Assembly: GCA_022925895.1 (NCBI GenBank)
Contig: JAKSYS010000219.1
Span: 21,387 to 85,386, forward strand
From: Fragilaria crotonensis
Taxonomy: Eukaryota > Bacillariophyta > Fragilariophyceae > Fragilariales > Fragilariaceae
Length of the DNA stretch: 64,000 bases
Direction of reading: 5' to 3'
The position numbers and the translations under genes were made by a program. Numbering within the stretch: position 1 is the stretch's first letter; each line of letters starts with the position of its first letter. The notes beneath the pieces were generated by a model. The model was not told the origin of the DNA. It made no database searches and was given only the letters and a program-made list of their open reading frames with translations. Shown piece after piece: positions 4,441 through 63,979 of the stretch.

Positions 4441-5454
4441 CATAGAGTTACACCATTGCTTGGAGCTTGGAGTACAAACATACTCTGAGAACTGAGAAGT
4501 ATGTACTTCGCGGTACGGAGTACTTGTACCCTAATTAAAAAGCGCTCTTTGAGAAGCGTTTCGCATGTGGTGCCAACAACAAGTTCACAAGATGAACCTG
4601 CATCACATTCATATCTTCCCATGTCACTTCCTCAAAATGTTAAACCAAGGTGGTCCGTGCGCTCCTCTCGCGACAAATAGCCTCAGGAAGTTTATCATCA
4701 CTCTCAGACCCGAGACATGCTCGTACTTGTAAAGCCTAAAAGCAGTTCGGTTGCCAATACTACCTCATGCAAGATCTCGGAGTGCTCTCCAACACGCAAG
4801 CGCAAGGTGCCAGGCGGCTGTCTGGATGTCGCCACGTTCGCCACACAGTATCCAAAGGTAACCTTCGAACAGGTGGGCGCAAGCATCAAGAAGGGAATCG
4901 ATACGTCCGAGCTCGCGAATCAACTCGCCTCGGTCTAGTTGGCATAGTCGAAGGCTTCCCGTATTGATCTTGATAAGGGGTAGCCTGCTCGGCGAAGTCC
5001 ACTATCAGTGCAACGACACGCGGCAGATGATCAGTACGATACGCAACCGTGTCGAACGGCTTGATTCCAACAAGTTGCCTCGCCAGCTTCCATAGCATCG
5101 TCTGCATACCAACAGAACCACTCAAGAGCTTAGTCGTCCATCGCCGACTCCCAACTGCGTAACGACGCCATGCAGAAACGACAACGCATCATTGACGGTC
5201 AAATTCTTTGCTTCCCATCGCCAGTGTTCCGGCCTGTTCAAATGTGGTATCTCTTTGTTACTCAAATGCTGTCGTATCGTGATCTTGTGACGTGTGTCAA
5301 CTTCATCTCAAATCTGCCTGTTTTGTACTGTGGAGTATTCAGTAGTCGTACTTGGTCGGTCTACATGGAGTAAACGATAGGTGACCATTTAGTCGATATG
5401 CTAACTTCACGCCAACACTGAAGAGTCGATTTGTAAAGAAGTTTAGATAAGATG
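4441..5454. other. intergenic, no supported gene
   Basis: Only short open frames of 60-79 codons occur on both strands. Two of them (4717-4938 plus, 4886-5125 minus) have protein-like composition but match nothing I recognise and overlap each other. They may be relics. GTAC-containing motifs are sparse here. Confidence 0.5.
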
Positions 5455-56733: not shown

Positions 56734-57700
56734 TGTCGTTTTCTGTCGTTCGGATGTGCGGCGTTGACTGGCTACAGCGTACCGATGATGTGTGTGGAGC
56801 CTGTTGGCGAGTGCAGTCGCCTTGAGAATCAAGAATGGAATGCCTGCACTTTTGTCAGTTGGTGATGGAAGTTCTTCCTTGTACACATGTGCAGACCGAA
56901 GATTCCCGTAAGGATATGCAAACAATCAGCAGCTGTCACGGTGCTATTGTTTTAGCCGTGACGCGAACCCTCACCGGAAACAATTGTTGTGTGCAGATGG
57001 CTCAACAACGGTCCGCCTTGCGAACCGCAAACAGGTACGAGTACGCCGTCCTAGTAAATGAATATGCATACCTTATGTCCATACACTAATATTACTCTAT
57101 ACTCCAGTACACTCCATACTCCATACTGTACTCCATACTCACTGCGACCATGCTGCATCTTGCATGCTGTGCATGCTCAATATGTCCATATGTCATATGA
57201 AATAATATGAATAAACCTGTACTACGGTAGAGTACCAGGTACTAGTAGACGTGTACACCAATCTCCAATGGAGCACTCGAGTACTTGTATTCGTACCTGG
57301 TACCTGAAGTTGTACCGGTACTGCATTCCGAGGACTGGAATATGGTTTTTCGATTAGTAGTCGCTTCTTTCAGCAACTACGGTAGACCATGCGAACTGTG
57401 AACGGCATACTTTAGCAGGAGGTTCCCTTGTTTGGATTCATTTCAACTCTGTACGTATGTACACTTCCGGACTGGATTCTAGATGATCTCACTTGTAAGG
57501 GTAGCATGGAAGCGCTTATATTCATGGTCGCATACCGTGCAGGTCTCGCGTCTCGTCTCACCCTATTTGTATGACGCAAGTCGCAACTACCATGGAAGGA
57601 ATCCCGAAATCAAATGGTGTAGCGACTTGCAGCGTGCTAGAACGTCCCGATAATATTCAGGTCCGCGAGTAAATGCCTACCTTTCCTCGTCAGCGAAGAA
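56734..57700. promoter_or_regulatory. divergent gap, GTAC-rich middle
   Basis: GTAC palindromes cluster at 57030-57320, upstream of SCS-beta and of the small unknown gene. No gene is seen. Confidence 0.45.
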
Positions 57701-58309: not shown

Positions 58310-59176
58310 TCAATTATTTTCTTCAACCTCCGCGTCGTCGTCAGTATCAGCCGACACGTCGTCTCCAAGGATTTGTTCCTCGTTTGGTTCTTCAGCATCG
58401 ACGTTTGCTTCTTTTGTGTCATCATCTACGTCTCCGGCATCATCGTTTCCTTCTTCAGCATCATCATTTGCGTCTTCAGCATTGTCATTCGAGTCATGAG
58501 CATCCTCGGGATCCTCCTCTTTAGCCGGAGATGGATCCTCAGAGTTGCTATCCTTCTGATTTGCATTGTTTCCCAAAACAGTGGTACCTTCAAACATGAG
58601 GGGTGCCAACTTCACTGCGTTATCTGACTTCTCACAAGTTCGTTCTTGTCCCCATTTAGTTACTGTCATGTCCCCAAAATGATCGTAGATTTCAACGTCA
58701 AATGCCCTTGTGCATTCGTCGCCATCCATGACTTGGAGTGTCAACCTGATATTCATTCCAGCAACAACCTGTGTCAAAAGAATGATTGCAAAGGTGAATT
58801 CTGTGAGACTGGCTGAACATTCCAGCATTCATTTGCCACTCGTAAAAAAACAATCATTCACACATTACAGCATACATAGTCGTACCTGTATTTCTGCGCT
58901 TTCCACTTGCAACGTCACATTAGGAGTCTCGTCCAACACAATTCCAGGGTAAGGCGATTGCAACGCCAGAGCTTCCTTCGTGAATTCGACAGCGCGCACC
59001 ACGAACGGGTCATTCACATCAGCATCATGGTAGGCTCCTATACGCATGCTACGGTGGTATTGTTCATGGTGCTGGTGAGACTCGACCGTTTGCATTGTCA
59101 GGAGAATCAGAAGAACAGAAGCGATAAGGAGGAGCAGGAGAGTAGAAGTGATAGAAGAGGAGAATAGTAATCTCAT
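58310..59176 (-). CDS. secreted cystatin-type cysteine protease inhibitor with acidic tail
   Basis: Two exons, 59176-58886 and 58768-58310, with a 117-bp GT-AG intron; 249 residues. A long signal peptide (LLLLLIASVLLILLTMQ) precedes the cystatin fold: a Gly (RIGAYHDADVNDPF) before the helix VVRAVEFTKEAL, and the first inhibitory hairpin QVVAG, formed exactly across the exon junction, followed by MNIRLTLQVMDG. Cystatins block papain-family proteases. The last ~85 residues are an Asp/Glu/Asn-rich tail, unusual for cystatins. Divergent from IRE1 across a GTAC-rich gap. Confidence 0.8.
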
Positions 59177-59876
59177 ATTTGTCAAGTGTGGAATTGAATG
59201 CAATCGTGTTCTGATGAACCAGTTCCTGTTCTTCACGGCCTCTGTCAATGAGAAATGAGAAGCGGGTCTTGCTTCCTTTGAGGACAGCGCATGTGTGACC
59301 CATTTCCCTCGTACAAGTATGATTCCTGCTGGTACGAGGTACAAGTACTTGTATCTGTACACGCTCGCATGTCGCATGTCCATGTCGCATGTGCATTTGA
59401 GGACCTCTGGTACAGCATGCGTGTACAAAGTACTGGTACACTGGTACTAGTTCCTGGTGCTATTTGCTACTATCGTAGAATGCATATAGTTGGTGGCTGG
59501 TGGAAGTCGTCGGAGTTCGACATGCTGAAAATGAAATACGTGTTCTGCACTACGAGTAGACCAGTCTCCAGTACACAGAGGTAAAAGTACCGAGTTTGGA
59601 GAATGAGGTTCGAGTACCAAAGGTACTATCACTGTACACTCCACACTACTGCAGATCGTTGTACCAAAGTACTACACTTGAGAAGTGTGTACGATTGGAC
59701 AACTGCTATGAGCGATGACAGACGGGAACCATTGGACGCCATCATCACTTATCTCAGGCACAAACTAGCGACCAACACTCCGTCAGTACCTCTTCTTCCG
59801 ATCTCATACCTACGCAACGCTAATTTTCAATTGGTGTCTTGGAGTGAATGAGTCTCCAGAATCGAAAAAGTATAGA
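59177..59876. promoter_or_regulatory. divergent gap between cystatin and IRE1
   Basis: GTAC motifs are dense at 59310-59670. No supported gene. Confidence 0.45.
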
Positions 59877-62800
59877 ATGAACGCTTCGAGCGACCTTATG
59901 GTTGTAGACGCCGTTGCGGTTCCTCCTCGCCCCAGAAATCGATTGCTCCGAAAGGCTCTCTGGGTCAATACCTGGTTGCTCTTGTCGCTGGCAGTAGTCT
60001 CAAAGCAACTTTCTGCGGCAAAGGCCAGCAATTCAGTCAATATTGATGCGCAAGGCAATCCATTTCCAGAATCACAAGAATTGAGGTCTCTGACGACTAC
60101 GACATTGATCATGGCGTATCGTGGACCACGGAAACCCTCCTAAATGGAGAGATCAACGATGACGACAGTCGAGGAATTATTGTTGTAGCGACCGTGGATG
60201 GAAGTATCGCCGGTCTCACGTCAAACGGGTAAGGTTCTGTGGAAACAATCTGGTATTTGTCTAATGGAGGCAGACCTCCCGGCAAACGACGATTCCACCA
60301 ACAGCACAGACTCTTCCAAAGTACTTAGTCCCCTCGTCTCTACCACAACAACCACTAAATCAAGCTCCCACGATTCTCGAACGGCCGCTGTGCCCTCGGT
60401 TGATGGGTCTTCTTGACGGCCGGTCGTGACAAGGAGCTCACGGCAACGTCCACGCTCAAGGAGTTGGTTGCGCGAGCCCCTTCGTCGACTCCCGAGGTCG
60501 ATTTTACGTCGGATCCCGACAAGCTACCGCAGCAGCCATGGACCGAGACACGGGAGAAATCTTGCGGGTTGTGACGGGGGGCGATGTGGCATCGTCGCAA
60601 GACGAGGGTCCAGACCTTCAAGGGAGGAACATTGTTTGGGTGGGCCGCGTCGATTATTCGATTTCCTTGTTCGATGCCAGAAGTGGCGCTATGGATGTCA
60701 AATTTTCTAGCTCGGAAATCATGGGTGTTCGAGATATGATGGTTGATGATATTGAGGATATTCGCTCGCAACCTCACGCACCTCGCCTGATGCTTCCGAC
60801 GAAGGAGGAGGCCAAGAAACAGTTAGCCATGCTAATCGCGACGCCGAATGGGAACGTTGCGCCCGGAACGCGCACACAGGAGGTATTGACTGGGTGTCTG
60901 ACGAAACTTTGATACTCCTGTTGCTTTTGCGTTGGAGGCGTCGACTGGAACTTCGCTAGGTGTGGATATCTTACCGATGCTCCTTTACCCGATAGCTCGC
61001 CTGAATATGTAGCACGGCAATTGGAACGGCAAATGGATCTGATAAAAGCCTCCGAAGAACCTGAGCAGACAATTGTTGGTGCGCTATCGAGTGGACAGCT
61101 CTTCGCCATGCCGCTTGGGAAACGACTTTCTCAAGCCAAGCTTGTGACATCGATTGGTTTGCCCCATTCGACCGCCCCGGCCTCGTCAGCTGTCGGATCG
61201 AAAGCAATAGGTAGCAAGCTTCCTAATCTTGCAAAGACTCCGGCGACAGGAACCTATTCTCACAAGTCTGACGAACATTCCAAGGTCTCCGCTCTTGCTA
61301 AGAAAACCTGTGGACCAACGAACCCTAATTTCCCTGCATGTTTGGTAGGTGGGATTCACCACAATCATGATTTTGTGTCCAGCTTAGAAGGATCCTTTCT
61401 AGACAGTGATGGGACTGCAGACCAAACAGCAGTGCTACCCTTTCAACAGATGCATTCCATGCAAAGCGACCTCTTGGAGCTACAACAATTTCGCAAGAAT
61501 AAGCGTAATTTCTTCAAGTTAATGGAATCCTGGCTTCCACCCCACGATGGCCCTTCTCTTTGTCTTGGCATTTGACATGGGAAGACGAATCAAGGCAAAG
61601 AAGCGAAAAGAGAAGGAGACTGCGATACAGCCAATGGCATCTCTCGAAAGTACGAGCGCCATCGCTGAAAGCAGTGTCAACGGCGATGGAGTTCGAAATG
61701 TTGGTGTCATTCAAGTCACTGATGACGTTTTGGGCTTCGGAGGTCATGGGACTGTTGTCTACAGAGGGACGTTGGATAGTCGACAAGTAGCCGTCAAGAG
61801 AATGCTGAAGGCCTATCACGCGAGTGCTGACAGAGAGATCTCGCTGCTCATTGAAAGCGATGGGCACCCCAATGTTGTTCGATACTTTCTGAAGGAAGTC
61901 AAAGGAGACTTTGTATATTTGGCTCTAGAATTATGTGATATGTCGTTGCACGATTTGATTGCGGAGCTCAGAAGGCATTCAGTGGAGCCGGTCCTTGCAG
62001 CACCCCAGCTAAGGAAACTGTCCAGGCGACTTTATACCAAATTGCGTGCGGCGTTCGGCACTTGCACTCTCTGAGGATAGTGCATAGGTAAGTAGTACTG
62101 TGCGCGACTTACTCATCCGATCAACGAGCGAACTAACGCCTCGATGTTGTCAACAGGGATCTCAAGCCAGCCAATATCTTGCTGGCTTGGTCAGGACGAA
62201 CGAAAGTCAAAGCTGCTTTCACGCCCGACGGACTCAAAGGCGAAGACGAGTTTATCGTTCGCTACGAGAAAGGAGGCTACATTGCAAAGATATCTGATAT
62301 GGGTCTTGGCAAACAGCTTGCAGGGCAAAGTAGCTTCGGACTGAGTACGTTGGGAGCTGCGTCGATTCAGGGATCGGTGAATGGTTGCGAGTCACGTTTG
62401 GTCGGAGCTGGGCCAGGAAGCGTCGGATGGCAGGCGCCAGAAGTCATGGCGATTCGATGGTCTGCTGAATCGTCGTCTGTCAAGTCTGGTGAAAGTAACT
62501 CTCGTACTGACTCGTTAATGGAAACATCTCCTCTTGATGCCGCGATGTCTTCTCGAACTAGTCGTTCCGTGGACATTTTTTCACTAGGGTGCATTTTCCA
62601 TTGCACCTCGTCCCTGGAACTCATCCGTTTGGAGATTGGTACGAGCGGGAAGTTAACATCATGCGTAACAAGACGTCAACAGAAGAGCTCCTTGACATAT
62701 CACCGGATGCGCACATCTAATTATCGCCATGATTTCCAGGGATGCCACTCAACGACCCACGGCACAAGAGGTTTGCGAGCATCCCTTCTTCTGGAGTCCA

Positions 62801-63979
62801 CGGAAAAAGCTGGCGTTTCTGTGTGACATTTCTGATCGAATCGAAAATGACGCCCAATTGTGGAGCAGGGCAAAAGGTATCTCTCGATTCGCTGCAAATG
62901 TCTTTGCAATAGAGAGAAATGCGGCGCAAGTGGTTGGCACAGCCTGGGATCAACTCGACCCTGATCTGATCAGCAATGTGTCGAAATTTCGTACCTACGA
63001 TCCGTCATCTGTACGAGACTTCCTCCGACTCATCCGCAACAAACATCATCACTATGATGAACTACCGGGACACGTCAAGGTGAGAGTTGGTCCAAATCCA
63101 GACGGCTTACTTTTATACTTCAGGTCTTCCTAGACTCTTGATGCACTGCTTTAGCTTGAGCAAAGAATTCCTTGATGCCGACGATCCCTTGGCGCAGAAG
63201 TACTCGATTCCAACGCCAATTCTTCCTAGGCGGAGACTTGAAGCGAAGGAATTAGCAAACGTAGGCGAGTGCGACGATTTCGACAGGGGCGAATTCCGGA
63301 CCCCGAAGCGAATATTCAGGCTAGCACGGACACCTACACGCACCAAGAACGCAAATATGAAACGTTCGACACTCTCAATGGTGCGGTGCGCGATGACAAT
63401 TTTCTTGTAGAGAGTACCGAATGTCAAGTTGCCACCGACACAAATCACGTCGTCGACATGGAAAAAGGACAATGGGACGCGACAGCGCCTCTTCTCCCGG
63501 ATGGGGATATCGTTATCTGGGACGGAAGCACGGCCGCGAAGACTTTCAAAAGTCGCGGTTGGTTGCGTGCTGATGACGAATGGATCAGAAGAGGTGATTC
63601 AAATCTGAAGAAGTTAGATGGCAACCTGGCCCGATGCGCTGATGATTCAAAGTTTCGCACACGTTTGTGCAACCATTGGGATAAGAGTTTAGGAACGTTT
63701 TGCCCAATGCAAAACGAAATAAGTGTATTTTGCGCACGGTCCGGTCGAGTTACGTGTCAAAGAAGGCAAAAATCCAGATGGGGAAAGCTTGTTGATGCGA
63801 ATGGCAACAACTCGAACCCTAAGCACTCAGGTGGGGAGGATACGTATAGCCGCTCGATCTATTGAGGCAACAAGGAAGGAAGAAGGAAGTGGAATACGGG
63901 TAAACTGGCACCAGGAAAAGCGAAACCAAAAGCAAATCAGACGCCTGCTAGGAACTACGGGAAAACTGACATGGTATAG
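59877..63979 (+). CDS. IRE1: IRE1-type ER-stress kinase/RNase with C-terminal CCCH zinc finger (multiple frameshifts)
   Basis: Start at 59877 (MNASSDLMV; alternative 59844). A hydrophobic signal/anchor (LWVNTWLLLSLAVV) leads to a lumenal PQQ-type propeller (VVATVDGSIAGLTSN, GKVLWKQSG, ISLFDARSGAMDVKF). After a TM (MALLFVLAF, ~61550) comes the kinase: GFGGHGTVVYRG, VAVKRM, VHRDLKPANIL (across a 69-bp intron, 62088-62156), DMGLGK instead of DFG, and WQAPEVM. The KEN RNase domain holds the catalytic Tyr in KFRTYDPSSVRDFL and Arg, Asn, His in LIRNKHHHY. The frame then continues ~250 residues into a CCCH finger (CNHWDKSLGTFC, KC, FAHGPVELR) and stops at 63979. At least ten apparent indels interrupt the frame, for example at ~60228, 62031, 62601, 62708, 63120, 63300, 63730 and 63848. 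Confidence 0.82.

Follow-up and report, generated by a model that had tools for sequence, protein, structure and literature searches.

How IRE1 chooses the mRNAs that it cuts is an open question, for which work such as PMC8104961 implicates a hairpin motif and the alignment of the dimer. An IRE1 with an RNA-binding-type module of its own, in a photosynthetic stramenopile, a lineage distant from animals, fungi and plants alike, would be a natural experiment on target choice. Such a protein was proposed for the diatom Fragilaria crotonensis from the window, a stretch of 64,000 nucleotides (C136:21387-85386), where the IRE1 frame seemed to continue past the KEN RNase domain into a CCCH zinc finger that could help to select mRNAs for splicing or decay. 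In the window itself the ORFs at 59877-63979 are short and overlapping, and the CCCH finger is split over two frames. The locus thus raises two questions: whether kinase, RNase and finger belong to one protein, and what such a finger would do.

Two contig copies of one IRE1 gene

A search of the assembly (62.1 Mb in 881 contigs) with the KEN family hit the window and one other place, contig C705, where the open frame spans 621 codons; both carry the same gene, which is, as far as this search detects, the sole IRE1 gene of the diatom. On C705 (29,521 bases, of which the first 10,000 were compared) the locus was 99.1% identical to the window copy over 6,807 aligned columns. The gene runs there on the reverse strand from an ATG at 4995 to a TAG at 856, with one 69-nt GT-AG intron, and encodes 1356 residues without an internal stop. 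Its start and stop agree with the ends given by the original prediction, 59877 and 63979. A single frame contains a luminal region, a weakly predicted membrane helix, the kinase, the KEN RNase, a linker, the CCCH finger and the stop codon, as laid out in the table.

Features of the IRE1-CCCH gene, in window positions
Feature	Positions	Strand	Remarks
IRE1-CCCH gene	59877..63979	+	window copy with many indels; intact copy at C705:4995-856 (-), 1356 aa
Hydrophobic N-terminal segment (residue 23 on) and luminal region	59943..61509	+	beta-propeller/PQQ-like matches under Pfam cut-offs
Possible membrane helix (residues ~549-571), then basic stretch	61510..61579	+	hydropathy only, weak
Protein kinase domain, interrupted by the intron	61727..62806	+	VAVK, HRDLKPAN, SDMG, APE
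69-nt GT-AG intron at the HRD motif	62088..62156	+	found in C705, located in the window
KEN RNase domain, end approximate	62807..63175	+	Pfam Ribonuc_2-5A; RNKHHH motif
Linker of ~155 residues	63176..63649	+	no Pfam domain reaches its cut-off; the IRE1 frame scores as coding
CCCH finger, KFRTRL-C-x10-C-x7-C-x3-H	63650..63737	+	tristetraprolin-like lead-in; whole in C705, broken up by indels in the window copy
Lys/Arg-rich C-terminal tail with the stop codon	63738..63979	+	

Over the 6.8 kb compared, the two contigs differed at 44 places. Of these, 6 are substitutions and 38 are indels, of which 35 are deletions on the window side; 29 of the indels and 5 of the substitutions fall within 59877-63979. 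Contig C136 ends with the window (85386 of 85386), placing the IRE1 gene at its very end, and half of the indels (19 of 38) sit in the final 2 kb of the contig, its densest part. Counted per 1-kb bin from 57 kb, the first bin being partial, the indels number 3, 2, 4, 7, 3, 8 and 11, a rise that is not monotonic. The 29 indels within the gene might suggest a pseudogene decaying in the haplotype of the window, with the finger frame as a relic. However, the C705 copy is intact across 1356 codons, and a predominance of small deletions (35 of 44 differences), denser near the contig end, is what errors of a long-read consensus would be expected to leave, so that decay of the gene seems to us extremely improbable. 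Because of this pattern of differences we infer that the broken frame is probably a consensus error at the contig end, and the gene would be intact in the organism, judging from its copy on C705.

A 1.75-kb insertion in C705 (L003:7634-9389) is missing from the window copy at 57243-57244. It has perfect 24-nt terminal inverted repeats and an apparent TA target duplication, and most of it, used as a query, gave 81 matches in the genome, many of them partial and one being itself, features that suggest a polymorphic DNA transposon or a MITE-like element. As the element is present in one contig only, C136 and C705 may represent two haplotypes; they may also have been built on overlapping or shared reads. 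Upstream of the gene and on the opposite strand, positions 58310-59180 (-) hold two ORFs resembling pieces of a secreted protein, one starting with a strongly hydrophobic leader and the other having a tail that is acidic and repeat-like; no Pfam family matched the leader piece (103 aa) at E<=0.1. The silicon transporter family gave 19 matches in the assembly (18 above the cut-off, the best at 646 bits), which fits a diatom genome; a single control genome matched, below the cut-off.

A single frame from the RNase to the finger

KEN is matched up to about residue 1089, and the finger occupies residues 1252-1275, starting about 160 residues past KEN, with some 267 residues in total lying C-terminal to the RNase. 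With a codon table taken from eight selected long ORFs of the window, the in-frame coding score was positive for the luminal region (+0.175), the stretch from membrane to kinase (+0.189), the kinase (+0.102), KEN (+0.166), the linker (+0.236) and the tail (+0.196). The five other frames of the linker and of the tail were negative, as were all three forward frames in each flank (600 bases downstream, 696 upstream). The finger segment itself scored -0.074 over its 45 codons, not better than frame 2 at -0.057, and so gives coding no support; it is a short segment with an unusual composition. The probability that 266 codons would stay open by chance was 7e-7 from base composition, and 1 in 20,000 first-order Markov sequences stayed open.

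These data bear on the possibility that a separate gene further downstream, or an alternative transcript, starts at the in-frame ATG of residue 1182 (Met1182) and supplies the finger, while IRE1 itself ends earlier by polyadenylation or splicing. That ATG is in its favour. Against it, the whole linker is coding in the IRE1 frame, and the stretch from KEN to finger contains no stop, no GTRAG donor and none of the signals AATAAA, ATTAAA or TGTAA. The only GTRAG donor of exon 2, GTRAG being the donor form scanned, lies inside KEN. A poly(A) site between KEN and finger had been named as something to look for, and the lack of such signals agrees with the predicted continuity, although this is a weak test, since no such signal occurs in the ~550 bases after the stop codon either. 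We consider a separate gene or transcript very unlikely. At the level of sequence, the observation that the IRE1 frame runs on into a CCCH finger was thus confirmed by the intact C705 copy, in one frame of 1356 residues.

The kinase, the RNase and a divergent finger

The domain order and the sequence matches of the RNase support the assignment of the predicted protein to IRE1. The kinase is directly followed by the KEN RNase, with Pfam scores of 44.4 and 50.4 bits for Pkinase on the two exons and 116.7 bits for Ribonuc_2-5A, and the best PDB match of exon 2 was yeast IRE1 (E 2.8e-44). Among the 42 PDB sequences that matched this exon, the farthest reached residue 361 of its 614. The luminal region gave propeller and PQQ matches, all of them sub-threshold in Pfam. 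Hydropathy was 1.45 for residues 23-41 and 1.27 for residues 549-571, to be read against a segment within the kinase that is nearly as high (1.24).

The catalytic Arg, Asn, His and Tyr of the RNase had been described as kept. In the alignment with yeast IRE1 this was so for Tyr1043, Arg1056, Asn1057 and His1061, which are identical, although Arg1039 is replaced by Lys; Tyr1059 is replaced by His. The kept residues give the R-x4-H form of a motif described in PMC3710099 as the HEPN active site, and Arg1039 takes part in binding of the RNA substrate according to PMC8104961. In the same paper, the selectivity of the enzyme goes with positions 988, 992 and 1059: a strict pattern, S. cerevisiae-like, has Glu/Asp, Lys/Arg and Tyr, and the permissive, S. 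pombe-like one, found in 175 of 230 orthologues, is variable, Asp/Glu and Lys/Arg. The diatom residues aligned to these positions are Ala, Asp and His. The Asp at 992 agrees with the permissive pattern, whereas the His at 1059 fits neither pattern, Tyr being strict and Lys/Arg permissive at that position. The putative interface is nearer to the permissive pattern, yet not identical to it.

The finger is a single one of the form C-x10-C-x7-C-x3-H, preceded by KFRTRL and ending in FAHGxxELR. When the 253-aa tail was shuffled 200,000 times, 292 of the shuffled sequences showed the CCCH pattern taken by itself, 2 showed it together with FxHG, and none showed it with both the lead-in and FxHG. A 56-aa finger piece matched seven PDB sequences at E<=1, all of which we take, by their names, to be CCCH proteins. 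For the three best, whole-chain E-values were 1.3e-4 for 9y10, 0.0065 for 1m9o (tristetraprolin) and 0.022 for 1rgo (Butyrate response factor 2), values to which both fingers of a target contribute; for one finger alone the best E was 0.037. Against Pfam the finger stayed under the curated cut-offs, with 15.2 of 31.1 for zf-CCCH_UNK and 14.9 of 25.8 for zf-CCCH_2, and the unrelated TSP_1 (E 0.027) came close to the best CCCH model (0.021). Across the assembly PF00642 gave 27 matches at E<=1, neither IRE1 copy being among them. Within this genome the finger piece (E<=1) and the linker (E<=10) matched nothing but the two copies of the IRE1 gene, except for one linker match at E 4.41, which was dismissed; no second gene with the finger or the linker was thus detected.

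Canonical CCCH spacing is 8/5/3, and the tristetraprolin type is a tandem of two C-x8-C-x5-C-x3-H fingers, each with an (R/K)YKTEL lead-in. With tristetraprolin/TIS11 (1m9o, 1rgo) the diatom finger shares the end C-x-F-A-H-G-x-x-E-L-R, and its lead-in, KFRTRL, is similar and not identical to (R/K)YKTEL, both fitting K/R-aromatic-K/R-T-x-L-C; it differs in its 10/7/3 spacing, in being one finger and not the tandem of two, and in its kinase-RNase context. Lead-in and end look typical, spacing and finger number do not; we call it a predicted divergent tristetraprolin-like CCCH finger and place it outside the tandem family.

The main rival to a role in RNA contact holds that this CCCH-like stretch binds zinc for a structural purpose or for contacts with other proteins, for instance in oligomerisation or in docking to the ribosome or translocon. 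The 10/7/3 spacing, unlike the canonical one, and the presence of a single finger would fit such a site. Furthermore, the Tyr after the second Cys of 1rgo, which has a stacking role, aligned with no aromatic counterpart in the diatom finger. On the other hand, the lead-in and the FAHGxxELR end are like those of RNA-binding, tristetraprolin-type fingers, and we judge a protein-contact site to be the less probable reading, albeit one of real weight. The finger is likely an accessory RNA contact of an IRE1 capable of decay.

Possible output, and relation to known systems

Whether an RNA-contacting IRE1 of this kind would serve splicing or decay was approached through ligases and targets. RtcB and archease had no matches in the assembly and were matched in 9 and 6, respectively, of 14 control genomes, the matching controls being prokaryotes and therefore no test for intron-split genes in an incomplete assembly. 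RNA_lig_T4_1 had no matches in the assembly and none in the controls, hence it is uninformative. A scan for paired CNGNNGN hairpins covered 22 of 26 bZIP matches, in 20 stretches (the matches on C236, C857, C279 and C548 were left out). A strict rule gave 0 pairs, and has no power since the shuffles also gave 0; a relaxed rule gave 1 pair vs 0.5 in shuffles, and longer stems gave 0 vs 0.15. Among these 20 bZIP stretches, then, no splicing target rose above chance. The interface residues and the undetected RtcB and archease make us lean to decay over splicing, although another ligase may serve. The failure to detect RtcB and archease also raises the question of which ligase would act in tRNA splicing and in any IRE1-type splicing.

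Luminal sensing, clustering and activation of KEN are established for the IRE1 family. In the diatom, luminal sensing of ER stress would lead the protein to cluster and the KEN dimer to become active; the finger of each subunit would contact single-stranded, perhaps AU-rich, RNA, the cluster would keep ER-bound mRNAs next to the nuclease, and the output would more likely be broad, RIDD-like decay than the splicing of a single target. With moderate confidence we favour this reading as a whole, that is, an ER sensor IRE1 whose cytosolic part continues past KEN via a linker into a divergent tristetraprolin-like finger and a basic tail, with clustering, RNA contact and decay included. The part borne by the sequence itself is one gene, in one frame, with the signature residues of kinase and RNase kept; the interpretation originally placed on the fusion was partly supported. 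A bolder extension, which we regard as speculative and rather unlikely, is that one weak finger per subunit would make RNA capture depend on clustering, such that only oligomerised, stress-activated IRE1 holds AU-rich mRNAs and avidity, not the KEN hairpin alone, sets the targets; as no RtcB was detected, the diatom may then use IRE1 mainly for decay.

No relative was confirmed in the two collections scanned, either among viral contigs (with the 614-aa second exon, the 52-aa finger and a two-sequence KEN alignment) or among prokaryote genome contigs (with the 388-aa KEN-to-end piece and the KEN alignment). No study of a diatom IRE1 was found in the literature searched, from which most subscription journals were out of reach. 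Among PMC11062448, PMC9902392, PMC11679888, PMC11122798, PMC6794094, PMC8104961, PMC3710099, PMC4061530 and PMC4245714, CCCH and KEN were seen side by side in PMC3710099 alone, within one cell of a table.

The diatom protein is like IRE1 (ERN1/Ire1p) in the order of kinase and KEN, and in the kept Tyr, Arg, Asn and His, and may also resemble it in the sub-threshold propeller matches of its luminal region and in its hydrophobic segments. It differs by the ~267 residues past KEN with their CCCH finger, and by Lys at 1039 and His at 1059. The CrIRE1 of Chlamydomonas reinhardtii reportedly differs from other IRE1 proteins by a C-terminal tandem zinc-finger domain; compared by description, the two are alike in having a C-terminal zinc-finger region, which is a tandem in the green alga and a single finger in the diatom. 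In a 2013 survey of HEPN domains (PMC3710099), the KEN row of Table 1 gives fusions to an S/T/Y kinase, with ankyrin repeats, and with CCCH "in some". Given this entry, the premise that IRE1 and other KEN proteins stop short of a finger of this kind is not supported as a general rule. The diatom IRE1 likewise joins KEN, kinase and CCCH in one protein, as found on C705, the CCCH being assigned by motif and PDB matches rather than by a Pfam cut-off. As it stands in that table, the entry names no species, no number or position of fingers and does not tell IRE1 from RNase L-like proteins, so that closeness to it is not judgeable. Because the table lists CCCH with kinase-KEN, and in view of what is said of CrIRE1, the architecture is not new as such; the novelty may lie in its occurrence in a diatom, with one atypical finger. 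The gene is real, and deserves annotation as a further case of this known architecture.
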